From: Spirochaetaceae bacterium
GTDB taxonomy: Bacteria; Spirochaetota; Spirochaetia; PWKH01
NCBI GenBank assembly: GCA_003559765.1
Contig: PWKH01000087.1
Coordinates: 1-33,781 of the forward strand
Reading direction: 5' to 3'
Length of the DNA stretch: 33,781 nucleotides
The notes under the pieces are model-generated. The model did not search any database and was not told where the DNA came from. It saw only the letters and a list, made by a program, of their open reading frames with translations. Position numbers and translations under genes: made by a program. Below are positions 1,498-30,067 of the stretch, piece by piece. How positions within the stretch are numbered: position 1 is the first letter of the stretch; each line of letters starts with the position of its first letter.

Positions 1498-3027
1498 GTG
1501 AACATCGCCGTCATCGTTCCGCCGATTGAAGACTTCTACCACACTCCCCATCGCCATGCCTCCCTCGGTGCAGAGGTGGTCTGCACGATTATCCGGCAGC
1601 ACGGCCATGAAAGCATCCTGCTGGACTTCCCCTGCATGGGGTCTGAAGCCACCGATATTCCCGGAGAGCTCGGGTATCTCAGGGAGGTGATCCTTCCCGG
1701 AGAATACGGGCCGACGGCGTTTTTCACCCGCAGAAGACGATACGGACCCTCCTATGAGGAATGTGCGGCCCGGATTGCAGCCCTGAAGCCTGATCTTGCC
1801 GCCCTCTCATGCTTTGCCTTTGCCTACAGCGACAGCTGCCTCAAACTGCTTCGAGCCCTGCGCAGACTGCTGCCGGAATGCCCGGTTATCGTCGGCGGGG
1901 CGGGGCCTTCGAGCATGCCGGATACGTTCATCGGAGATAATCTCGCAGATGCGGTCCTCCGGGGTGAGGCCGAGGTCTCCCTGCCTCCGCTTCTTGACGC
2001 CTTTTTGAAGGCAGGTTCCAGGAAGCTCCTGCAGAGCATCTGCCGGGAAATTCCCAACGGGGTTACTGCTCCGCTGGGAAAGCCCCCGGGTCCCCCGGGG
2101 TTGACTGCCTCGGCAGGAGAGATACAGACCGCCTGTGCGGCTTCCGCGGTTACCAAGCGGTTCCAGCAGTTCTCGGCAAGCATCTCCCGGGGCTGTCCTA
2201 TGCACTGCCGGTTCTGCTCCATTTCCTTTTCCCACGGCAGGGATTTCCGCCTTCCGCCGTTGGAATCAGCGGCAACCCGGATCCTGGAGCGGACTGCTGC
2301 AGAAGGGGTACCCGGACTGCCGATCTCAATTAACATCGAAGATGACAATCTGCTGGCAGATTTCGGATACTGTTCGGCCCTTCTGGAGCGGCTTACTCAG
2401 CAGCTGGGGGCGATTTCCGTAACCGCGGAAAACGGCATGGACTACCGGCTGCTGGACCATGAACGGATCGACCGGCTCACGGCACTGGGTATGAGAAAAT
2501 TCAATCTTTCTGCAGGCATTGTTCCCTCACAGGCTTCCCTGCAGCAGCGGCGCAGCCAGGATCTTGCCCTTCTGGAGGATTTGTGCAGGCATCTGCATGC
2601 ACAGGGGACAGAGACCGTAGTGTATGCCATTGCCGGATTTCCCGGGGACAGCCGCAGACAGAGCATTTCAGCCCTTCAGTTTCTCCGCAGTATCCCCGCA
2701 TATTCCGGACTGTCGCTTTTTTATCCCGTGCCCGGTCTTCCGGGATGCGCAGCAGCGGCTGATCATCCCTCGGTCCTTTCAGCAGGCTCCTCGCTGTATC
2801 CCTGGGGAGAGTCGCTGAGCACCCGGGAAATGGCTGCGCTGTTCCGTCTCTCCCGCTTTATCAATCTGGAGAAGCACAAGCACCTGTCTCACCGGGACAA
2901 GCGTCTGCTTGATCTGATACGAAGAGACAAAGTCCTGCATACATACATCAAAGGAAGGGATGAGCCGTTCGAAGTGCCGGATTATGCCGCAGACTCCGAA
3001 CTTGTCAGGGAGTTCTTTTCATCATAG
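1498..3027 (+). CDS. B12-binding-domain radical SAM protein
   Basis: N-terminal cobalamin-binding-like Rossmann segment (…LSCFAFAYSDS…VIVGGAGPSSMP…VLRGEAE) and radical SAM motif GCPMHCRFCS (CxxxCxxC); GTG start. Confidence 0.85.
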   Translation: MNIAVIVPPIEDFYHTPHRHASLGAEVVCTIIRQHGHESILLDFPCMGSEATDIPGELGYLREVILPGEYGPTAFFTRRRRYGPSYEECAARIAALKPDLAALSCFAFAYSDSCLKLLRALRRLLPECPVIVGGAGPSSMPDTFIGDNLADAVLRGEAEVSLPPLLDAFLKAGSRKLLQSICREIPNGVTAPLGKPPGPPGLTASAGEIQTACAASAVTKRFQQFSASISRGCPMHCRFCSISFSHGRDFRLPPLESAATRILERTAAEGVPGLPISINIEDDNLLADFGYCSALLERLTQQLGAISVTAENGMDYRLLDHERIDRLTALGMRKFNLSAGIVPSQASLQQRRSQDLALLEDLCRHLHAQGTETVVYAIAGFPGDSRRQSISALQFLRSIPAYSGLSLFYPVPGLPGCAAAADHPSVLSAGSSLYPWGESLSTREMAALFRLSRFINLEKHKHLSHRDKRLLDLIRRDKVLHTYIKGRDEPFEVPDYAADSELVREFFSS

Positions 3028-4011
3028 GAGCTTTTCCACATCACCGGAAATTTCGCAGGCTCCGGGATCGCCGGTTCCGTCAAAAAGCATGCTCCCCTGA
3101 TTATCCTTCAGGGTAAGGCGGATCTTAGCAGACACCCCCTCCTTGATATACCGGTTCATTACTCCCTTCCGGGGAGCGGCAAGCAGCCCGGTTGCGGCAT
3201 TCTGCACACTGATCCACAGCACATATCTTGAGTCGGCAATCCGCAGGGAAACGGCATGCCCGCTGACAGCAAGCTCTTCAATCTGGGACCGGGTGTAGGT
3301 TGCAAACCGGTACAGTCTTTCTCCGGTGTAGAGAAAGCCGAGAAATCCCACAAACTGCCGTCCCAGCCAGGGAATGGATGCGACCGAAAGCATGAAGGAG
3401 GTCCGGGGGTCGGCAAAATCATTGCTCTGCATCCACAGATAATCCTTCGGGAACGAGGTGCCCCAGTCCTTTTCGATATATCCCTTCCCGCCGGTGAAAT
3501 CAACCGGAGCTCCGCCAATGGTCATACTGCCCTGAAGTGAATGGTTCATGGACACCACTCCGTGGAAGCATTCCATGAAGGGCACATACCCGTACCATCC
3601 CATGATTCCCGGTGAGGTGAGGGTCACCGGATAGGGAGTGGTGCCTTTGTATGCAATTGTTCCGGCGATTTGTATCTCCTCACGATCTATGGAGAGGGTC
3701 ATCTCACTTCTGGAAAAATAGTTGTCCCCAATCCTTACAAAAAACCGGTGTTTCTCTGTCTGGAATTCACTGATGTCATAGGGAATGTAGCAGGAACCTT
3801 TGCTGCTGATAATCTGAATGAAGGCATGGCGATCATCCCGCTGCACCAGGGATATTCCGGGAATTACCGCCAGCACTTCACCGCTGCAGGTATGCTTGAA
3901 GTACCAGCCTTCGAAATAAGAGCGTTTCTTCAGATTTCCCTGGAAGATTTCAGGATGAAAGAGATGTCTTCCCATACTCAAGTATAGCACAGCTGACCGG
4001 CATTGCTCCAA
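3022..4011 (-). CDS. Tocopherol cyclase-like family protein; likely start at 3975 (MGRHLFHPEIFQG…)
   Basis: Tocopherol-cyclase-family features: KRSYFEGWYFKH, GYIEKDWGTSFPKDYLWMQSNDF. Confidence 0.8.
   Translation of the reverse strand: MEQCRSAVLYLSMGRHLFHPEIFQGNLKKRSYFEGWYFKHTCSGEVLAVIPGISLVQRDDRHAFIQIISSKGSCYIPYDISEFQTEKHRFFVRIGDNYFSRSEMTLSIDREEIQIAGTIAYKGTTPYPVTLTSPGIMGWYGYVPFMECFHGVVSMNHSLQGSMTIGGAPVDFTGGKGYIEKDWGTSFPKDYLWMQSNDFADPRTSFMLSVASIPWLGRQFVGFLGFLYTGERLYRFATYTRSQIEELAVSGHAVSLRIADSRYVLWISVQNAATGLLAAPRKGVMNRYIKEGVSAKIRLTLKDNQGSMLFDGTGDPGACEISGDVEKLL
3981..3989 (-). promoter_or_regulatory. Extended -10 (TGC-TATACT) 5 nt upstream of ATG 3975; possible leaderless promoter
   Basis: Minus strand reads TGCTATACTtgagtATG; no Shine-Dalgarno visible. 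Confidence 0.5.
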
Positions 4012-4676: not shown

Positions 4677-4709
4677 CAGACTCGATCCAGTTGCGGTGAT
4701 ACTGGTTTC

Positions 4710-5147
4710 ATGAAACAGATCAAAATTATCAACCTATGCTGCATGGTTCTGATGCTCGCCGCTGCACCGGCTGCAGCCTGCGAATTCACCTATCGGATCA
4801 CCAACAGTCTCGGATCCTCCCGGGAGGTGTCGCCGGACGAACTGATACCGCTGACTGCCGGGGAGATCTACGAACTGGAATTATCCTACTGGGAGGATCA
4901 CCGTTCCTGTCCTCTAGGTCCGGAGGGGACCGTGCTGCTGCTGGAGGGAGGCAGGTGGATTACTCAGCGGCAGACCCAGCCGCTGGTGCTGCAGGCTCCG
5001 GTCTCCTGGCCGGAATCGTCAAGCAGAACAAAAACCGGATATGCTTCATTCATACCGCAGCAGCAGGGAACCTGGACGGTGGAAATACTGCGCATCTGCT
5101 CCCGGGAAGGTTACAGCGGATCGCTTCATTTTCACGTAACCAATTAA
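4710..5147 (+). CDS. Small exported protein, function unknown (signal peptide, three Cys in mature part)
   Basis: MKQIKIINLCCMVLMLAAAPAAACEF signal-like N-terminus; predicted secreted beta-rich domain; 13 nt upstream of the 4Fe-4S protein gene. Confidence 0.7.
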   Translation: MKQIKIINLCCMVLMLAAAPAAACEFTYRITNSLGSSREVSPDELIPLTAGEIYELELSYWEDHRSCPLGPEGTVLLLEGGRWITQRQTQPLVLQAPVSWPESSSRTKTGYASFIPQQQGTWTVEILRICSREGYSGSLHFHVTN

Positions 5148-8259: not shown

Positions 8260-8324
8260 GGCACCACATGGAAACTCCATATCCCGATGATACGGTAAGA
8301 CTATCTTAGACAAAGGAGCAGACA

Positions 8325-8867
8325 ATGAAACTTGTAATGCTGGTAGTTGGATTGATTCTCACCCTGGGGGTATCGGCTCAGGGAGTCACGGAAACAGAGC
8401 AGGACCTCAGACCTGCTGCAGCGGAGACTGCCCCAGGCGGTCCGGAAAACCCCGATGATCCCCTCGGGAGGGAAGTGGCCGCATTCGGTACGCTGAAAAC
8501 CCTGGACGGAACCCTGCAGTATTTCCATGACGAGTGGCATCTTGAAGCAGACTCGGTGATGTATGAACTCCATATGGGACCGACAGGGCACGACAGTGAA
8601 GAACTCTTTCCTCAGGGAGCGGCAGCGGTCGTCAGAGGGTTCGTCTTCAGCGATCATATATCGCCGATTTCCATCAGCACAGCTGAACTGGAAGTGCAGT
8701 ACTGGACCGAAGAGCGTCATTCGGTATGGGCCGGAAGCGGTGAAGGCGCGATGCGCCGAACAGACGGACAGCAGCCTGAAGACGGCATCCAGCGGGTGAG
8801 CGAACAGGGAGAGCGGGGGGAAGCGATTCCCATGCAGCAGAGACTGCTGATGCGTCAGGCACCGTAA
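8325..8867 (+). CDS. Exported protein, function unknown
   Basis: Signal-like MKLVMLVVGLILTLGVSAQG; SD AAAGGAG; core GTLKTLDGTLQYFHDEWHLEADSVMYELHMGPTGH suggests a small beta-rich domain. Confidence 0.65.
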   Translation: MKLVMLVVGLILTLGVSAQGVTETEQDLRPAAAETAPGGPENPDDPLGREVAAFGTLKTLDGTLQYFHDEWHLEADSVMYELHMGPTGHDSEELFPQGAAAVVRGFVFSDHISPISISTAELEVQYWTEERHSVWAGSGEGAMRRTDGQQPEDGIQRVSEQGERGEAIPMQQRLLMRQAP

Positions 8868-14710: not shown

Positions 14711-15517
14711 TCAGCGAAACAGCAGGCCGTACAGCCCCAGGGGAATCAGGTAGAAACAGAATAGATAAAGCTTCCCTCCCCGGATGAGGTACAGCAGCAG
14801 CTTCAGGGATGCAAATCCCGAGACCAGGGCCGCAATGAATCCCGCAGCCAGCGCTTCTGCCGATACCGCTGCGGTGATCGTCTCCGCTGCAGCCAGCTCA
14901 AGTATCAGTGCGCCAATTATCGCCGGAATGGATATAAGAAACGATATTTCCCCAGCCCGCCTGCGGTCGGCTCCGCTTACCAGGGCTGTCGAAATGGTGA
15001 TCCCCGAACGGGAAATTCCCGGAAGGGTGCCCAGCCCCTGACTGATCCCCAGCACGGCGCTTTTTACCGGAGAAAGATGGATGCTTCCGACCGGCCGCTG
15101 GAATACCCGTCCGATGATCAGGATGGCCGAGGTGACTAAAAAGAGCGCATAGACCCCAGTTATCGGCATAGCAGGCTGCACCCGGGAAACTGCAAGGCCT
15201 ACCGCACCGGTGAATACGGTTGCAATGACGATCATCCTTACGGTCCGCATATGGGACCGGTGGATATCCTCCTCCCCGAGGGGAACGGATTTTGAAACAG
15301 CCTGGTACAGCGCCCGGATCAGCTCCCAGATGCGGCGGCGGAATACAAAACAGACGGCAATGAGGGTGGCGATATGGAGCAGCACGTCATAGAGCAGCGG
15401 TATTCCGTCAATCTGAAGCACATCCCGGAATACCGCCAGATGCCCGGAACTTGAAACGGGAAGAAACTCTGTTACCCCCTGCACGAGGCCGAGAATAAGC
15501 GACTGCAGTACACTCAT
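14711..15517 (-). CDS. uppP: Undecaprenyl-diphosphate phosphatase
   Basis: GLVQGVTEFLPVSSSGHLAV and GTLPGISRSGITIST motifs; polytopic. Confidence 0.96.
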   Translation of the reverse strand: MSVLQSLILGLVQGVTEFLPVSSSGHLAVFRDVLQIDGIPLLYDVLLHIATLIAVCFVFRRRIWELIRALYQAVSKSVPLGEEDIHRSHMRTVRMIVIATVFTGAVGLAVSRVQPAMPITGVYALFLVTSAILIIGRVFQRPVGSIHLSPVKSAVLGISQGLGTLPGISRSGITISTALVSGADRRRAGEISFLISIPAIIGALILELAAAETITAAVSAEALAAGFIAALVSGFASLKLLLYLIRGGKLYLFCFYLIPLGLYGLLFR

Positions 15518-15523
15518 TGCAGT

Positions 15524-15552
15524 ATGATAATCAAATCCCGCCTTCAGCGCAA
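15524..15552 (-). promoter_or_regulatory. Promoter TTGCGC-17-TATCAT ending 6 nt before the uppP ATG; possible leaderless start
   Basis: Minus strand: TTGCGC tgaaggcgggatttgat TATCAT actgca ATG; no SD. Confidence 0.45.
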
Positions 15553-18028: not shown

Positions 18029-19417
18029 TTATTTCCCGACGCAGAATCCCGAGAATATCCGGTCAAGGATATCATCGGGGGTCAGCGCTCCGGTGAGTTC
18101 TCCTAATGCGGCAAGCGCCTCCTGAAGCTCCGAGGCGATTACGTCCATGGGCATGGCTGTCCCGACTGCGCGATGAGCTTCCCGGAGGGCACTGACAGCC
18201 CGGTCAAGCAGCTCCTTCTGCCGGAATGAGTCAATCATTACCTCCTGATCACGGGATGCCTCGCCGGCTGAACCGGGCAGACGGCGAAGAATCTCCGCCT
18301 CCAGACGGGCAAATCCCTCGCCTGAGTGGGCGCTGACCGGCAGGGCTCCCTCAGGCGAAGGGCTCACCTCCGGGCTGTCGCATTTATTCCAGAGGAACAG
18401 GTACCGGGGATCCTGCCGCTTTTGGTGAAACAGATCCTGCTCCTGGTCGTTCAGCCCGGCTACCCCGTCACATACATAGAGCACCAGCTCCGCCCGGTCC
18501 ACCACATCCCGGCTGCGGAGCATGCCCTCCTGCTCAATGTCATCAGCATCATCAATGCCGATATACCTGAATCCTGCCGTATCATACAGACGGACCGGAA
18601 CTCCCTCAAGGGCAATCCAGGACTCGATGTAGTCCCGGGTAGTTCCATGGACATCTGAAACGATTGAGCGGTCCTGCTTGAGAAAAAGATTGAACAGGGA
18701 GGATTTCCCCGCATTGGTCTTTCCTGCCAGGGCGATAGTGACCCCTTCATGGTACAGCCGGCCCGCCTGATAGGTGTCTGCAAGCTGCTGAAGCCGCCCA
18801 GCGGCAGCCTCTATTGTCTCTGCCGGCACAGGAATCTCCTCTTCTATCTCGTCTTCTGCATAATCAAGCTGGAGCTCCAGTATGCTCAGCACGTCCGCCA
18901 GCTCCTGCTTCTGCTCGTCTATCCGCTGATGCAGAGTTCCGGAGAGCCGCTGAAAAGCAAAGCTGTGAGCCTTTCCAGACTTCGAACCGACTATTTCCTG
19001 GACCGCCTCCGCTCTGGTGAGATCCATCTTGCCGTTAATAAACGCCCGAAAGGTAAACTCTCCCGGCTGGGCATCCCGGAACCCGACTGCCCGCAGCGCC
19101 TCGAGAATCCGCTGGATCCCCGGAAGGCTTCCGTGACAGAATATCTCAACACTCTCCTCGCCGGTATATCCTCCGGGAGCCCGATACACTCCGAGCACCA
19201 CATCATCGATTGCTTCACGGCTTTCGGGATCTGAAAACACCCCGTGGTGCAGAGTCCCGTGGGCAGCCTGTCTCAGCCGGCGGGGTCGGGAGAAGCACCG
19301 GGCAACCAGGTCAACCGCTCCGGTTCCGGAGGTGCGCACCACCGCCAGGGCGCTTGACGCAAAGGGAGTAGCTAATGCCGCAATAGGCTCTTCTGTCTGG
19401 TAAGATCGGTCATTCAT
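18029..19417 (-). CDS. mnmE: tRNA modification GTPase MnmE
   Basis: PGGYTGEE, GEFTFRAFINGKMDLTRAEAVQ, GKTNAGKSSLFN, DTAGFR, C-terminal FCVGK. Confidence 0.97.
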   Translation of the reverse strand: MNDRSYQTEEPIAALATPFASSALAVVRTSGTGAVDLVARCFSRPRRLRQAAHGTLHHGVFSDPESREAIDDVVLGVYRAPGGYTGEESVEIFCHGSLPGIQRILEALRAVGFRDAQPGEFTFRAFINGKMDLTRAEAVQEIVGSKSGKAHSFAFQRLSGTLHQRIDEQKQELADVLSILELQLDYAEDEIEEEIPVPAETIEAAAGRLQQLADTYQAGRLYHEGVTIALAGKTNAGKSSLFNLFLKQDRSIVSDVHGTTRDYIESWIALEGVPVRLYDTAGFRYIGIDDADDIEQEGMLRSRDVVDRAELVLYVCDGVAGLNDQEQDLFHQKRQDPRYLFLWNKCDSPEVSPSPEGALPVSAHSGEGFARLEAEILRRLPGSAGEASRDQEVMIDSFRQKELLDRAVSALREAHRAVGTAMPMDVIASELQEALAALGELTGALTPDDILDRIFSGFCVGK

Positions 19418-19425
19418 GGGACTTG

Positions 19426-19454
19426 AGTATAATCAACCGCAGGGGATGTATCAA
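19426..19454 (-). promoter_or_regulatory. Strong sigma70-like promoter TTGATA-17-TATACT ending 8 nt before the mnmE ATG
   Basis: Minus strand: TTGATA catcccctgcggttgat TATACT caagtccc ATG; no SD. Confidence 0.65.
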
Positions 19455-20214: not shown

Positions 20215-20284
20215 CTTTTTTTTCGCGACTCTCTCCTTCCATTATATACGTCATCCCCGCACCTCTCAACACCGGAGAGGCAAA

Positions 20285-20344: not shown

Positions 20345-21145
20345 ATGAATCGAAGGATAACCGAAAAGGTGCTTGCAATTCTCCGGGAGGTCGGGGAGTA
20401 TCAGCTGTCTTATTTCCGCTCCATCCCCCTGGGGTCGGGAGACTCTAAGCTCGGCAGTGAAATGGTGAGCGAAATAGATATTGAAAGTGAGCGCAGACTT
20501 CATGCAGCCCTGACTGACCTTATTCCTGAAAGCACCTTCTACGGAGAAGAAACGGTGCAGCAGCAGGGGGGCGCATACAACTGGGTTGTCGATCCCCTGG
20601 ACGGCACGGCCAACTATCTCAGCGGGTATGACGCCTGGAGCATATCAGTCGCCTTAGTATCACCTGAGTGCATCGAGGCTGGCTTTGTCTACAAGCCCTT
20701 CACGGGGGAATATTTTCATGCCCGCAGCGGGTTGGGCGCCTGGTACATGGACCATCCGCTGCCGAAGCACAGCTCCCTCACCCTGGCTGAAAGCCTTCTG
20801 GGCACCGGCTTCCCCTACCGTTCAGCCTATTCCTCCCGGGCCATGTTTGACTCCCTGGAGGAGCTGCTGTTTTCCTGCAGAGGCATTCGGCGAAGCGGTT
20901 CTGCGGCCCTGGATCTCTGCTTTCTTGCCGCCGGGTTTCTCCAGGGATTCTGGGAAATTGATCTGCAGCCCTATGACTCCGCCGCAGGAATTCTGATGCT
21001 TGAGGAGACCGGATGCAGGTGGAGCGACTTCTTCGGGGACACCTACGAACTGTTTTCGACAAACTCCCTGGTGGCGGGTCTCCCCGGGGTATATGAGGAG
21101 CTCCAGCCGGTCATCGGGAAGCATTACCGGAAGATTGAGGCTTAA
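20345..21145 (+). CDS. Inositol monophosphatase family protein
   Basis: EEtv…VVDPLDGTANYLSG motif; start MNRRITEK behind AAAGGA rather than the longer ORF start at 20159. Confidence 0.88.
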   Translation: MNRRITEKVLAILREVGEYQLSYFRSIPLGSGDSKLGSEMVSEIDIESERRLHAALTDLIPESTFYGEETVQQQGGAYNWVVDPLDGTANYLSGYDAWSISVALVSPECIEAGFVYKPFTGEYFHARSGLGAWYMDHPLPKHSSLTLAESLLGTGFPYRSAYSSRAMFDSLEELLFSCRGIRRSGSAALDLCFLAAGFLQGFWEIDLQPYDSAAGILMLEETGCRWSDFFGDTYELFSTNSLVAGLPGVYEELQPVIGKHYRKIEA

Positions 21146-21170
21146 CGATTTCTCTGATCCGTAGTATAGT
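21142..21170 (+). promoter_or_regulatory. Promoter TTAACG-17-TATAGT ending exactly 6 nt before the nfo ATG; likely leaderless
   Basis: TTAACG atttctctgatccgtag TATAGT attccc ATG; no SD; the -35 overlaps the upstream stop codon. Confidence 0.6.
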
Positions 21171-21176
21171 ATTCCC

Positions 21177-22025
21177 ATGAAATATATTGGAGCCCACGTA
21201 AGTGCGGCAGGGGGCGTCAGCAATGCCCCGGTGCGCGCAGCAGAGATCGGAGCGACAGCCTTTGCCTTGTTCACAAAGAACCAGCGCCAATGGAAGTCGA
21301 AACCGCTGTCGGAATCGGAAATCAGGGAATTCAAAGCACAGATGCAGAAGCACGGTTTCACCCCGAAGCAGGTGCTTCCCCACGACAGCTACCTGATAAA
21401 CCTCGGCAATGTAAAGGACGAGCAGACTCGAAACAAGCACCTTTCAAGCTTTGTTGACGAGATGCAGCGGGTCGAACAGCTGGGACTTGACCGGCTGAAC
21501 TTCCATCCCGGCTCCCACCTCAATGAACTCACGACGGATGCGGCCATGCAGAAGATTGCCGAAGGGATTGGTCTGGGCATCCGGGAGAGCTCGGGGGTGT
21601 ATGCGGTCATTGAAATTACCGCCGGTCAGGGAACAAACCTGGGATTCTCCTTTGAGCAGCTGGCTCAGCTGATAGATCTGATACCGCAGCAGGACCGCAT
21701 AGGGGTGTGCCTTGATACCTGTCATATGTTTGCCGGGGGCTACGACCTCAGACAGCAGGAGGCCTATGACGCGGTGATGGCCCAGTTCCAAAAACTCATC
21801 GGATTCGAACTGCTTATGGGGATGCATTTGAATGATGCAAAAAGCTCTCTGGGAAGCAGGGTTGACCGCCATGCGAGTCTCGGCAGAGGTGAACTCGGCA
21901 TTGAGCCCTTCTCATATATCATGCAGGATGAACGGATGGATGAAATCCCCTTTATCCTTGAAACGGTTGAGCCTGAACTGTGGCCTGAAGAAATCAGAAC
22001 GCTCAAGGAGTTTGCCCATGGCTGA
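21177..22025 (+). CDS. nfo: Deoxyribonuclease IV (AP endonuclease)
   Basis: GAHVSAAGGVSNAP, LPHDSYLINL, HPGSH, CLDTCHMFAGGYD, HLNDAKSSLGSRVDRHASLGRG. Confidence 0.96.
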   Translation: MKYIGAHVSAAGGVSNAPVRAAEIGATAFALFTKNQRQWKSKPLSESEIREFKAQMQKHGFTPKQVLPHDSYLINLGNVKDEQTRNKHLSSFVDEMQRVEQLGLDRLNFHPGSHLNELTTDAAMQKIAEGIGLGIRESSGVYAVIEITAGQGTNLGFSFEQLAQLIDLIPQQDRIGVCLDTCHMFAGGYDLRQQEAYDAVMAQFQKLIGFELLMGMHLNDAKSSLGSRVDRHASLGRGELGIEPFSYIMQDERMDEIPFILETVEPELWPEEIRTLKEFAHG

Positions 22026-22794: not shown

Positions 22795-24184
22795 GCAGCA
22801 CCGAAGCGGCAATTTCTCCGAACCGCCGAAGCGCTGCTGTTTTTGCCTCATGATCGGATGCGCCGGTACCGTTGGCCACCACCGTGTCGGTTGACGCGAG
22901 CACCCTGCGGGTCCGGGTCTCCACAATCTGCACTTCCCCCCGGGCGGTTGCTACAAAGCGGTCCCGTGAATGCACCACTGATACGATTTCAACTTCCCCG
23001 ACCACCGCGTGCACCCCCTGACCTGCCTGCTGAAGGATGGACTGGATAACCTGGACCTGCGGTCCCGGGGAAACAGTCATGGGAACTGCATTCACCGTAT
23101 TTTCCCGGAATACTTCCACCAGCGCTTCCGTGGCGGCCGCATCATGCCGAAGGTCTCCTGCCCGATCATATTCCAGGATGGATGCAGCCACGGCTCCCCG
23201 CAGCACCTCGGGAAGCACGGTAAAGGAGAAGTACGTCTGCCGCTCACCTCCCAGCCGGTACAGTCCGCTCACCAGGGTGTTCAGCTCCTGGCTGCCCCGC
23301 AGGACTTCACTGGGCCCGTCGAACCGGGAAGTATCCAGGTGCACAGTCACCCGCCCGCTTCCCCGAAATCCCGGATGGGTGATCTGCACAGATGCAAATC
23401 CCCTGACGTCTGTTGCTGCCTGCTGTTCCAGCTGTATGCGGCGTCCGAGGCTGTCATAGACCGGATAGGCAAAGATGAGTTCAGCATTTGCAATTCCGCT
23501 GCTGAAAGCCCGCCCGTCGCGGACCAGCCGGACGGAAAAAACTGTATCCCCGTCACTTCTCCGCTGGGGCTCCATCCTCACCCGCTCCAGAATACCGATT
23601 GCCTGGTTCAAATACTCCTGGGAAAGCTCCAGATGCTCAGGCAGTTCAGAGGCATAGGCAGCCCGGGCAGCCTCCAGATATGCATGTACCGCCTCGGTGT
23701 CCTGATTCCTCGCATAATTCCGCCGTGCCGCATCCCGGTAAGACAGATGTTCCTGTCCCTCCCGGGCCAGCCGGTCCTGCTGAATACGTCGGAAGTTATT
23801 GATGGTTCTCCGATTCGCCTCGGCCAGCAGATATACCGTGGTTTTGCCGTCTTCACTGCGCTCAAATTCATCAGCAACAAAGAGGCTCAAATCGGCAATT
23901 TCTCCGTTGTCGACCAGTTCCCTCCGGTATCTGTCCTCAAGACGGTATCCGATATATGCCGAGAGCTGATTCATCAGATCATTCAGGGCCCGGTCTCTGG
24001 CAAGCTCCGTCTGATCTTCCTGTGCGCTTCCTTCGGCGACAAAGGAGATCGTCGTCAAGGTAGCCGAAGGGGTGCTGATGGTCCACCGGGGAACCCCTTG
24101 AATCAGACTGGTTATGGTGGCACACCCTGTGAGCGCCAGCACCAGCAGAGCTGCGGCAATAACGGAGCATATCGGCTTCTTCAT
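22781..24184 (-). CDS. LPP20-like lipoprotein, function unknown
   Basis: Lipobox LALTGCA; DRALNDLMNQLSAYIGY resembles LPP20/FlgT-type domains; ATGA-coupled to the upstream gene. Confidence 0.7.
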   Translation of the reverse strand: MKKPICSVIAAALLVLALTGCATITSLIQGVPRWTISTPSATLTTISFVAEGSAQEDQTELARDRALNDLMNQLSAYIGYRLEDRYRRELVDNGEIADLSLFVADEFERSEDGKTTVYLLAEANRRTINNFRRIQQDRLAREGQEHLSYRDAARRNYARNQDTEAVHAYLEAARAAYASELPEHLELSQEYLNQAIGILERVRMEPQRRSDGDTVFSVRLVRDGRAFSSGIANAELIFAYPVYDSLGRRIQLEQQAATDVRGFASVQITHPGFRGSGRVTVHLDTSRFDGPSEVLRGSQELNTLVSGLYRLGGERQTYFSFTVLPEVLRGAVAASILEYDRAGDLRHDAAATEALVEVFRENTVNAVPMTVSPGPQVQVIQSILQQAGQGVHAVVGEVEIVSVVHSRDRFVATARGEVQIVETRTRRVLASTDTVVANGTGASDHEAKTAALRRFGEIAASVLLNTL

Positions 24185-25500
24185 TCCTGCCGCCCTGCAT
24201 CAAAAATGAGGGAATTCTCCTGCTGATTTACCAGGTGCATATGAGCGGCCCCCGGAACCATTGCAGCCGCCCGGCGGATGCGCTTTTCAAGCTCCTCCGG
24301 AGATCCGTCAAAGACCAGCACAAAACGGATTTCATCCAGGGAGAAGGAGGTTCTGCGCAGCGACGCAGCCTGCTGCTCCAGCCGGCTGATAAACTCATCC
24401 ATACCCGGATCGGCCGCCGCACCGATGAATACAAGCTCATACTGCTCGCCGCGGTGCACCTGATCCGTGATCCTCCCGCTGATCTGCACAAGAAGATTTT
24501 CCATGACTTCCTCCGTTCCTGTGCGCAGCGCCCGCATCCCGGCTCCGTACAGGGATGCCGTGCTGGAAACCGCTTTGGTCTGATGAACTGCACCGCCGAT
24601 TTCTTGTCCGGTTGAGGCATCATAACAGGTCACGGTAATGAACGCCCTCCCCAGATACCGGGATGAGCCGGTCTGCTCAACGGAGGTTTCAGCAGAAATC
24701 TCGATATGATAGTCATAGGGAAGCGGGGATGCATCCAGCCGCAAATGAGCAGGAACCCCCGGGACATCCATGACGGCTGCTTGCTGCTGCATCTGATCAT
24801 ATTCAGCTGCAGGAAACCCGTATCGGACGAGCACGCCCCTGGCGGCGGCAGTTGCAGTATCGGCAAAGGCTGCATCGGTGATGCCGGCGGCGGAACAGGA
24901 GACCAGAAATACGGGACGGCTGACATCCTGCCACAGCATTTCGGGGCGGAACAGCACCTCCGAAAGGGGCCGCTCCCCGTCAATTTCCGGGAACGGCTCG
25001 TCGGGCAGGCGGAGTCCGAACACCTGATCTCTGATCATTCCTGCCTCAATACCGGAGCTGACAATCCGGTCGGACAGTGCTCTCAGGTTAATCCGCACTC
25101 CTGCGATCAGCTGATACTTCCCCTCAGCACGGTCCCAGGCAACAGTCTCCAGGGTCCCCGGTATGCAGTAGGGCTCCAGGTTCCTGATTCCGGCGATAAT
25201 CCGCTGCACCTGATCGCCGTAGAGCAGGGCGGATTCCTCAAGCATCACCACTGCCGATCGAAACAGGGCATCCTGCTTGGCAGCAGCTTCTGCTTCCTGC
25301 CGGCTTGCCCCTTCCCCGTAGCCGAAGAACATCGGAGCAGTTACTCCGGCTCGCTCCAGCAGCCTTGGGTCGGTCCGGGGCGCTTCTTCCCGGTATCGAT
25401 CCCCGCCGTAATAGGAGGCGCAGCCGACTGTCGGCAGCATCAGCAGTATGATGATGATCCGCTGCAGGACGGACCCTGATGAATGGAATCTCCTGTACAT
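24181..25500 (-). CDS. LPP20-like lipoprotein, function unknown
   Basis: Lipobox LPTVGCAS; GYGEGASRQEAEAAAKQDALFRSAV typical of LPP20-like domains. Confidence 0.7.
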   Translation of the reverse strand: MYRRFHSSGSVLQRIIIILLMLPTVGCASYYGGDRYREEAPRTDPRLLERAGVTAPMFFGYGEGASRQEAEAAAKQDALFRSAVVMLEESALLYGDQVQRIIAGIRNLEPYCIPGTLETVAWDRAEGKYQLIAGVRINLRALSDRIVSSGIEAGMIRDQVFGLRLPDEPFPEIDGERPLSEVLFRPEMLWQDVSRPVFLVSCSAAGITDAAFADTATAAARGVLVRYGFPAAEYDQMQQQAAVMDVPGVPAHLRLDASPLPYDYHIEISAETSVEQTGSSRYLGRAFITVTCYDASTGQEIGGAVHQTKAVSSTASLYGAGMRALRTGTEEVMENLLVQISGRITDQVHRGEQYELVFIGAAADPGMDEFISRLEQQAASLRRTSFSLDEIRFVLVFDGSPEELEKRIRRAAAMVPGAAHMHLVNQQENSLIFDAGRQE

Positions 25501-25506
25501 ACTGCT

Positions 25507-25535
25507 ATTGTACGGGTGATTTCGCGAGAGGGCAA
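25507..25535 (-). promoter_or_regulatory. Promoter TTGCCC-17-TACAAT ending 6 nt before ATG 25500; possible leaderless start
   Basis: Minus strand: TTGCCC tctcgcgaaatcacccg TACAAT agcagt ATG; no SD. Confidence 0.5.
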
Positions 25536-26670: not shown

Positions 26671-27907
26671 CTACCACCCGTGAGGCTTCGGCCATGTAGT
26701 CAGCGCAGGCCCATTCATACCGGCTGTGGTAGTTGAACCCCCCGGAGAAAATGTTCGGAGCTGGAATGCCCATGGCGGTCAGCCGGGCACCGTCGGTACC
26801 GCCCCGGATGCTCGTCATTTCAGGGGTGATGCCTGCCGAAGCAATCGAGCGCTTCAGCACATCCAGCACCTTCGGGTCCCTGCTGATGGCATCATACATA
26901 TTCTCATACTGCCAGAGAGTCTCAACCCGGACCGCGCCGCCGGGAAAGGCAGACTGCACTGAGCGGGCCATCTGCTCCACCGCCTCGGACCGGCGCACCG
27001 CCTCAGTACGGTCAAAGTCCCGGATAAACACGGTCACCGACGCCTGCTCCGCATCGCCGGTGACCGTCAGGGGGCAGTAGTACCCGAACCGGCCGTCGGT
27101 TGCCTCAGGGCTCTCAGCCTGGGGAAGCATGGAGATAAAGGATGCGGCCATCGTAACGGCATTGACCATCCGTCCCCGGGCATTCCCGAGATGGTAGGAC
27201 ACGCCGGTGAAAATCACGTCGCATTTCAGCGCATTGAAGCATTCAGCTTCCATGGTGCCCCGGCCGGGACCGTCCAGGGTATAGCAGTACCGGGAGCGCA
27301 GCTTCTCCACCGGGAAATGGTCCATTCCCCTGCCGGTCTCCTCGTCGGTGGTGAAAATGAGCTCAACCGCCCCGTGCTCCAGTTCCGGGCGGGCTGTCAG
27401 ATATTCCGCTGCGGTGATGATCTCAGCAATCCCGGCTTTATCATCGGCTCCGAGGAGGGTGGTGCCGTCTGCAGTAATGATATCCTTACCCACGCATGAG
27501 AGCAGTTCGGGATGCTCCTTCGGTGAAAGCACATATCCGCTGGTTCCCAGGGGGATATCGTTGCCGGTATACTCCTTGATTACCTGAGGGACTACCCCTC
27601 TGCCTGAAACATCCTCGGCGGTGTCCACATGGGCCATAAATCCCACTGCAGGAACCTGCTCTAGTCGCCGGTTAGTCGGAGGAATGCGGGCAATGAGAAA
27701 GCCCTCATCTAATACTGAGATATCGGTGATGCCCAGATCCTGCAGTTCGCTGCTGATGATATTCAGCAGGTCCCATTGTCCGGGGGTGGTGGGCCGGGAG
27801 GTGCTGCTGCGGTCAGACTGCGTATCGACAACTGCATATCTGAGCAGCCGCTCCGTTACCCTTTCGGAGAACCAATGCTGCATACTGCCTCCTTCTTGCT
27901 TGATCAT
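26636..27907 (-). CDS. pepT: Peptidase T (tripeptide aminopeptidase); start probably 27883
   Basis: GFMAHVDTAEDVSG, LGADDKAGIAEI, FTTDEETGRGMDHF, IRGGTDGARLT; SD AAGGAGG before ATG 27883. Confidence 0.95.
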   Translation of the reverse strand: MIKQEGGSMQHWFSERVTERLLRYAVVDTQSDRSSTSRPTTPGQWDLLNIISSELQDLGITDISVLDEGFLIARIPPTNRRLEQVPAVGFMAHVDTAEDVSGRGVVPQVIKEYTGNDIPLGTSGYVLSPKEHPELLSCVGKDIITADGTTLLGADDKAGIAEIITAAEYLTARPELEHGAVELIFTTDEETGRGMDHFPVEKLRSRYCYTLDGPGRGTMEAECFNALKCDVIFTGVSYHLGNARGRMVNAVTMAASFISMLPQAESPEATDGRFGYYCPLTVTGDAEQASVTVFIRDFDRTEAVRRSEAVEQMARSVQSAFPGGAVRVETLWQYENMYDAISRDPKVLDVLKRSIASAGITPEMTSIRGGTDGARLTAMGIPAPNIFSGGFNYHSRYEWACADYMAEASRVVVETVLQWAREE

Positions 27908-29027: not shown

Positions 29028-29064
29028 ATCTACACAAAGACACTATAAAACCTAGGAGGGAACC

Positions 29065-29640
29065 ATGAAGTCTTTGAATGGAACCGCAACTGAAAAAAAC
29101 CTGCTTACGGCATTTGCAGGTGAGTCACAGGCACGAAACCGCTATACCTATTTCGCCGCAGCGGCGAAGAAGGAAGGGTTTGTGATGATTTCCGAAAAGT
29201 TCAGCGAAACAGCTGATCAGGAGAAGGAACATGCCAAGCGGTTCTTTAAATTTCTCGATGGGGGAGAAGTTGAAATCACCGGTGCATTTCCAGCAGGGAA
29301 GATCGGCACTACCGCGGAAAACCTTCGCGCAGCAGCGGCCGGGGAAAATTATGAGTGGACCACCATGTATCCGGAATTTGCCAAGACGGCAGAGGAAGAA
29401 GGGTTCAACGAAATCGCTGCAGTGTTCAGGGCAGTAGCTGCTGCTGAAACACGGCATGAAGACCGGTATCTGAACATGCTGAAACTGGTGGAGGATGGTA
29501 CCATGTTCAAGCGGGACACCCCGGTGAAGTGGCAGTGCCGCAACTGCGGATATATCCATGAAGGAGCCGCTGCGCCGGCAAAATGTGCCGCCTGCGCCCA
29601 TCCTCAGGCCCATTTTGAGGTGTTCGGAGAGACTGTATAA
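29065..29640 (+). CDS. rbr: Rubrerythrin
   Basis: Ferritin-like diiron domain ([36 protein letters not shown]) plus C-terminal rubredoxin-like CRNCGY…CAACAHP. Confidence 0.96.
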
Positions 29641-29668
29641 TATTATATTTGGTCCAAGGAGGACAATT

Positions 29669-30067
29669 ATGGCAGAAGCAGTAAAACACGGAGTGTATTT
29701 GTGTGAGATCTGCGGAAACGTAGCAGAACTGCTGCGTGCAGGTCAGGGGGAATTGGTTTGCTGCGGTGAACCAATGAAGCGTATGGATGAACAGACCGCT
29801 GATTCATCTACGGAAAAACATGTTCCAGTTATCGAAAAAACCGATTCCGGTTACAGCGTAGTAGTCGGTTCAACCCTTCATCCGATGGTTGAAAAACACT
29901 TTATTGAATGGATTGAACTCATCGTAGACGGAAAATCCTGTAAGAAATTCCTCAAACCCGGTGATGAGCCGAAGGCTGAATTCTGCACCTGTACTGATGA
30001 TGCAGCTGCGTCGGTTTCAGCCAGGGAATTCTGCAACGTCCACGGACTCTGGAGGGCGGAAAAGTAA
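29669..30067 (+). CDS. dfx: Desulfoferrodoxin (2Fe superoxide reductase)
   Basis: N-terminal CEIC…VCCGEPM desulforedoxin centre; [30 protein letters not shown] catalytic site; SD AAGGAGGA. Confidence 0.95.

Follow-up and report, generated by a model that had tools for sequence, protein, structure and literature searches.

Zheng et al. 2011 (PMC3160421) read TA-like signals ~12 bp before start codons as marking leaderless genes. Of the 18 Spirochaetes genomes in that study, 6 were predicted to have such TA-led genes, which made up a mean of 3.9% of genes. In the spirochaete Leptospira interrogans, dRNA-seq published in 2017 (PMC5243855) placed the transcription start site (TSS) of about 440 genes <10 nt from the start, and that of 170-184 genes exactly at it. 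Elsewhere among the bacteria, leaderless genes number 505 in Mycobacterium tuberculosis (PMC3898074) and 1,174 in Deinococcus deserti, as these figures are quoted in PMC5243855. The case described here fits this known kind, leaderless genes having already been reported for Spirochaetes and other bacteria; what is new is the organism and the conservation gene by gene. As in the TA-led genes of Zheng et al., a TANNNT hexamer lies with its first T about 12 bp before the start and no Shine-Dalgarno (SD) motif is present, the share here being about 5%; the present lineage is uncultured, however, and tests of a -35 partner and of conservation orthologue by orthologue have been added. The evidence in L. 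interrogans, the other spirochaete, is experimental, whereas ours is a prediction from sequence, and that work (PMC5243855) found no general sigma70 motif, whereas -35 and -10 elements are recognizable here. In M. tuberculosis and D. deserti, as here, a leaderless class stands beside SD genes, but it is large there and a small minority here.

The window, the whole 33,781-nucleotide stretch that was analyzed, is contig 47 of the 189 contigs of a 2.09-Mb genome that is 85% complete; the closest MnmE proteins in public genomes, at 46-52% identity, come from metagenome-assembled genomes of Spirochaetales and Spirochaetaceae, which points to an uncultured spirochaete as the most likely source. Two relatives (G001 and G002) belong to the same genus as the window genome, a third (G003) to the same family, and the remaining ones to the same class. 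The genome's own sample comprised the window and 80 sampled stretches (L002-L081), 723 kb without N, with 540 usable starts, 476 of them ATG. Starts were called from coding potential and start-codon type alone, blind to SD motifs and promoters. The spacer is the number of nucleotides from the -10 hexamer (TANNNT) to the ATG. In the window, SD motifs were sought as GGAG, GAGG, or AGGA in positions -20 to -1.

Five genes in the window have a promoter-like element adjoining the ATG:

21142..21147, + strand, nfo -35-like hexamer TTAACG (sequence; CTTAACG also in the G002 orthologue)
21165..21170, + strand, nfo -10 hexamer TATAGT, 6 nt before the ATG (sequence; same-genus orthologues)
21177..22025, + strand, nfo (endonuclease IV, AP_endonuc_2), predicted leaderless (Pfam PF01261; no SD; start conserved in orthologues)
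15547..15552, - strand, uppP -35-like hexamer TTGCGC (sequence)
15524..15529, - strand, uppP -10 hexamer TATCAT, 6 nt before the ATG at 15517 (sequence; G003 orthologue TAATAT-7-ATG)
14711..15517, - strand, uppP (BacA family), predicted leaderless (Pfam PF02673)
25530..25535, - strand, -35 hexamer TTGCCC of the gene at 25500 (sequence)
25507..25512, - strand, -10 hexamer TACAAT of the gene at 25500, 6 nt before the ATG (sequence; G002 and G003 orthologues)
24181..25500, - strand, predicted lipoprotein, predicted leaderless (signal peptide ending LPTVGC, judged by eye)
3981..3989, - strand, extended -10 TGCTATACT of the tocopherol-cyclase-like gene, 5 nt before the ATG at 3975 (sequence; orthologues)
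3022..3975, - strand, tocopherol-cyclase-like gene, predicted leaderless (Pfam PF14249)
19449..19454, - strand, mnmE -35 hexamer TTGATA (sequence; kept in G002 and G003)
19426..19431, - strand, mnmE -10 hexamer TATACT, 8 nt before the ATG at 19417 (sequence; orthologues)
18029..19417, - strand, mnmE, predicted leaderless or with a 1-2 nt leader (Pfam TrmE_N and MnmE_helical)

A preliminary description of the window had proposed these arrangements as a recurrent layout lacking SD motifs, and all of them are in the sequence exactly as it gave them: TTAACG-17-TATAGT-6-ATG for nfo, with ATTCCC as the spacer and at the very coordinates given, TTGCGC-17-TATCAT-6-ATG for uppP, TTGCCC-17-TACAAT-6-ATG for the lipoprotein gene, TTGATA-17-TATACT-8-ATG for mnmE, and TGCTATACT-5-ATG for the tocopherol-cyclase-like gene. 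The lack of SD holds as well, with GGAG, GAGG, or AGGA in 0/5 of these genes within -20 to -1; nor did any of the five carry, 5-9 nt ahead of the start, purines complementary to the 16S 3' end. The nfo -35-like hexamer overlaps the TAA stop codon (21143-21145) of the preceding inositol-phosphatase-like gene. No Pfam family was matched by the products of the genes at 25500 and 4710. By way of contrast, the best sigma70 match between 14 and 26 kb is an ordinary promoter with a leader: TTGAGA-17-TATAAT (20241-20269, minus strand), upstream of a PP2C-like gene, with AAGGAGAG after it.

These five genes very probably belong to a class of about 5% of genes with sigma70-type promoters that place +1 on the A of the start codon or 1-2 nt upstream, and with leaderless mRNAs translated independently of SD. 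RNA polymerase would start at the A or 1-2 nt ahead of it, the resulting mRNA would have no room for an SD, and the AUG at its 5' end would presumably be recognized SD-independently, like leaderless mRNAs elsewhere, while an ordinary SD at 6-7 nt would serve most remaining genes that show a recognizable signal. A discriminator of 6 nt is standard in sigma70 geometry, so that a spacer of 6 sets +1 on the A. With a TSS that shifts by 1-3 nt, spacers of 5 and 8 may yield very short leaders. We infer from these spacings that +1 of nfo is the A of its ATG. For mnmE, the promoter layout stood as first described, but its spacer of 8, kept in two relatives, may mean a leader of 1-2 nt instead of none, with +1 at the A or 1-2 nt upstream.

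The layout is kept in 9/11 orthologues of the five window genes in G001-G003. The nfo orthologues carry TATAGT-6-ATG (G002) and TATATT-7-ATG (G001); TTGATA-17-TATACT-8-ATG of mnmE is kept in G002 and G003, and two more distant Spirochaetales (L082 and L083) have TTGATT-17-TATTCT-9-ATG. Ahead of the lipoprotein gene at 25500, TAATAT-5-ATG without SD was found in G002 and TACAAT-12-ATG in G003, and the tocopherol-cyclase-like gene has TATACT 6-8 nt before the ATG in G001, G002, and G003. As a separate observation, the nfo gene at window position 21177, leaderless in type here, differs from its counterpart in the sister genus (G003, locus L165), which has AAGGAGG, a switch of initiation mode between close relatives.

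A rival reading grants that the -10 boxes are real but has the working mRNAs come from other promoters upstream, or has the starts miscalled and translation beginning further downstream on a leadered RNA. Many bacterial genes do have several TSSs, and a second promoter further upstream, with a leadered mRNA as its product, may coexist with such a -10. However, 31-50 nt separate each of the five window genes from the same-strand gene ahead, leaving little intergenic room for such a promoter, and against miscalling, the start methionines of nfo, mnmE, uppP, and the tocopherol-cyclase-like gene align with the starts of their orthologues. We consider this reading improbable.

Within the window by itself, enrichment was only marginal: TANNNT at spacers 5-8 occurred at 5 of ~30 starts, against ~2 estimated from the genome background rate, and a consensus scan between 14 and 26 kb returned 7 sigma70-like sites versus 4.8 +/- 1.6 in shuffles. 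The preliminary description had named a lack of genome-wide enrichment of the spacing as a refutation and had called for a comparison with shuffled controls; on the genome's own sample the enrichment was found, and clearly. SD 4-mers peaked 6-7 nt before starts, a sign of ordinary SD initiation in this genome. TANNNT preceded the ATG at spacer 6 in 22 genes and at spacer 7 in 13, where the background rate is 7.9 per position (Poisson p about 2e-5; 723 kb). Nearly all of this signal lay in genes without SD (spacer 6, 20; spacer 7, 11; background 3.5 per position) rather than in SD genes (2 and 2), so that 31/207 no-SD versus 4/269 SD genes had the hexamer at spacer 6-7 (Fisher p = 1.3e-8), the SD assignment being a simple 4-mer rule applied to predicted starts of an incomplete genome. 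The 31 no-SD genes compare with about 7 expected (p about 2e-11) and, in 500 dinucleotide shuffles of no-SD upstream regions, with a mean of 6.4 and a maximum of 16. Internal ATG codons of the same sample showed no TANNNT peak at such spacing. By start codon, TANNNT at spacer 6-7 was found before 35/476 ATG versus 2/64 GTG/TTG starts, a difference in the direction of an AUG preference, though the numbers are too small to carry it. The excess above background amounts to about 24-26 of the 476 ATG genes, a class near 5%.

The hexamers have the company expected of a promoter. The best TTGACA match 16-18 nt upstream of the -10 averaged 3.65 of 6 positions in TA-led genes versus 2.43 in controls, and matches of at least 4/6 were present in 60% versus 11% (p = 3e-11); a TG extension of the -10 was seen in 12/37 TA-led genes. 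A front-like position, with a divergent neighbor or a gap >30 nt, was held by 27/31 TA-led versus 139/258 SD genes (p = 4e-4). A pyrimidine at -1, a modest signal in keeping with transcription from a purine, the A of the ATG, was found in 31/34 TA-led versus 197/269 SD genes (p = 0.02).

Conservation extends beyond the window. Among G001-G003 orthologues of TA-led genes, TANNNT at spacer 4-9 without SD was present in 38/49, for genes chosen by hand from the own-genome TA-led list before the orthologues were seen, except nfo and mnmE; the other 11 had an SD instead (5), both signals (2), or neither (4). Scoring of the layout covered about 20 genes in these three relatives. For 10 SD genes, TANNNT without SD occurred in 2/23 orthologues (p = 5e-8 versus 38/49). 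Ungapped upstream identity among TA-led orthologues reached a peak of 0.73 at position -35 over a background of 0.2-0.4, and this peak was absent in SD genes; identity was low save at -35, the -10 block, and the -1 base.

That AT-rich intergenic sequence yields TANNNT near some ATGs by chance is a reading to which the marginal enrichment of the window alone and the commonness of -10-like hexamers lend some color. As a general explanation it is already refuted by the sharp spacing peak, the near absence of the hexamer from SD genes and internal ATGs, the shuffles that never approached the observed count, the -35 partner, and the orthologues, and we leave it very little probability, though it may hold for about a quarter of single genes. 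Least probable of all is that the AT-rich block 7-12 nt before the ATG enhances translation, by S1/U-rich binding or through low structure, instead of being a promoter, a recognized alternative reading of AT bias ahead of non-SD starts (PMC5397173). An enhancer would require neither that the block be a TANNNT hexamer paired with a -35-like one 16-18 nt away nor a place at the front of transcription units.

The leaderless reading of the class is thus supported by a sharp peak at 6-7 nt, nearly confined to no-SD genes, together with a -35-like hexamer and orthologue conservation; from these we infer where exactly +1 lies and that translation is leaderless. It had also been proposed that two initiation classes coexist, for which four genes with strong SDs were cited, all of them borne out by the sequence, as was the name of rubrerythrin by Pfam. 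A sixth, tentative leaderless case, the gene at 4710, closes the list of sites:

29657..29662, + strand, dfx SD AGGAGG, 6 nt before the start at 29669 (sequence)
29054..29059, + strand, rubrerythrin SD AGGAGG, 5 nt before the start at 29065 (sequence)
27888..27893, - strand, pepT SD AGGAGG, 4 nt before the start at 27883 (sequence)
8314..8318, + strand, SD AGGAG, 6 nt before the start of the gene at 8325 (sequence)
4698..4703, + strand, GATACT-6-ATG before the gene at 4710, leaderless promoter not supported (orthologues have AGGAGG)

Two classes are too few, as 163/476 ATG genes (163 of the 207 without SD) had neither a simple SD nor the TA layout; among them may be genes with translational coupling, S1 dependence, or a weak SD on a leader, as well as miscalled starts. 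The gene at 4710 was rejected as a leaderless case: GATACT is present but is not a TANNNT hexamer, and AGGAGG precedes the orthologues in 3/3 relatives, in two of which the start sits 5 codons further in. A thiD-like gene (L062, 13360-14241) was set aside as well, since the pattern matched here, yet SD-like motifs were found in all three orthologues. Both are likely chance matches, and the thiD-like gene demonstrates that single-gene calls made without conservation have a real error rate, about a fifth to a third to judge from the background count.

The spacing bias recurs over much of the class. In samples from other Spirochaetia, the no-SD peak at 5-7 nt comprised 14 genes versus 1.5 expected in G010, 11 versus 2.2 in G027, and 10 versus 2.4 in G008; in the G028 sample it fell short of significance. 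Whole-genome counts of TATAMT at spacers 6-7 versus 12-13, which are supportive only because non-genic matches are included, were 49 versus 13 in G010 and 137 versus 49 in G040; the excess was clear in many of the class's genomes and absent from G017, G020, and G023. One further property did not carry over: N-terminally hydrophobic proteins were encoded by 18/37 TA-led versus 69/269 genes in the own genome (window and L002-L081; p = 0.006), but by 11/48 versus 72/243 in four other Spirochaetia, and an enrichment of exported or membrane proteins is not claimed.

These results would extend leaderless initiation to an uncultured spirochaete family in which that state appears to be kept gene by gene between genera, though the upstream sequence around these signals has mostly diverged. 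Orthologue pairs like that of nfo, leaderless in type in one genus but with an SD in a neighboring one, offer ready comparisons for a change of initiation mode. In annotation, programs that call starts by their SD can misplace leaderless ones. It is conceivable, if rather doubtful, that the leaderless state is itself under selection, such that a set conserved in the family (mnmE, the penicillin-binding-protein gene, rhomboid, the AI-2E family transporter, the tocopherol-cyclase-like gene, and nfo) would be translated differentially with the state of the ribosome or initiation factors and would occasionally switch to SD, as nfo did in G003.

Two promoters outside the window were conserved in their own right. 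The penicillin-binding protein gene has exactly CATACTAATATATTTTT just before the ATG in 4/4 family genomes (L044:11815-11831, L208, L210, and L216), a stretch with no other occurrence in 318 loci and with conservation far above that of other promoters, which may serve as an operator or as the site of an alternative sigma factor. Upstream of the AI-2E family transporter gene (L063, upstream of 3211 on the minus strand; L221 and L226), the promoter stretch is almost entirely conserved in three same-genus genomes, including the -35 to -10 interval, TTTAGCAAAGGTGA, which suggests a regulator site within this promoter.
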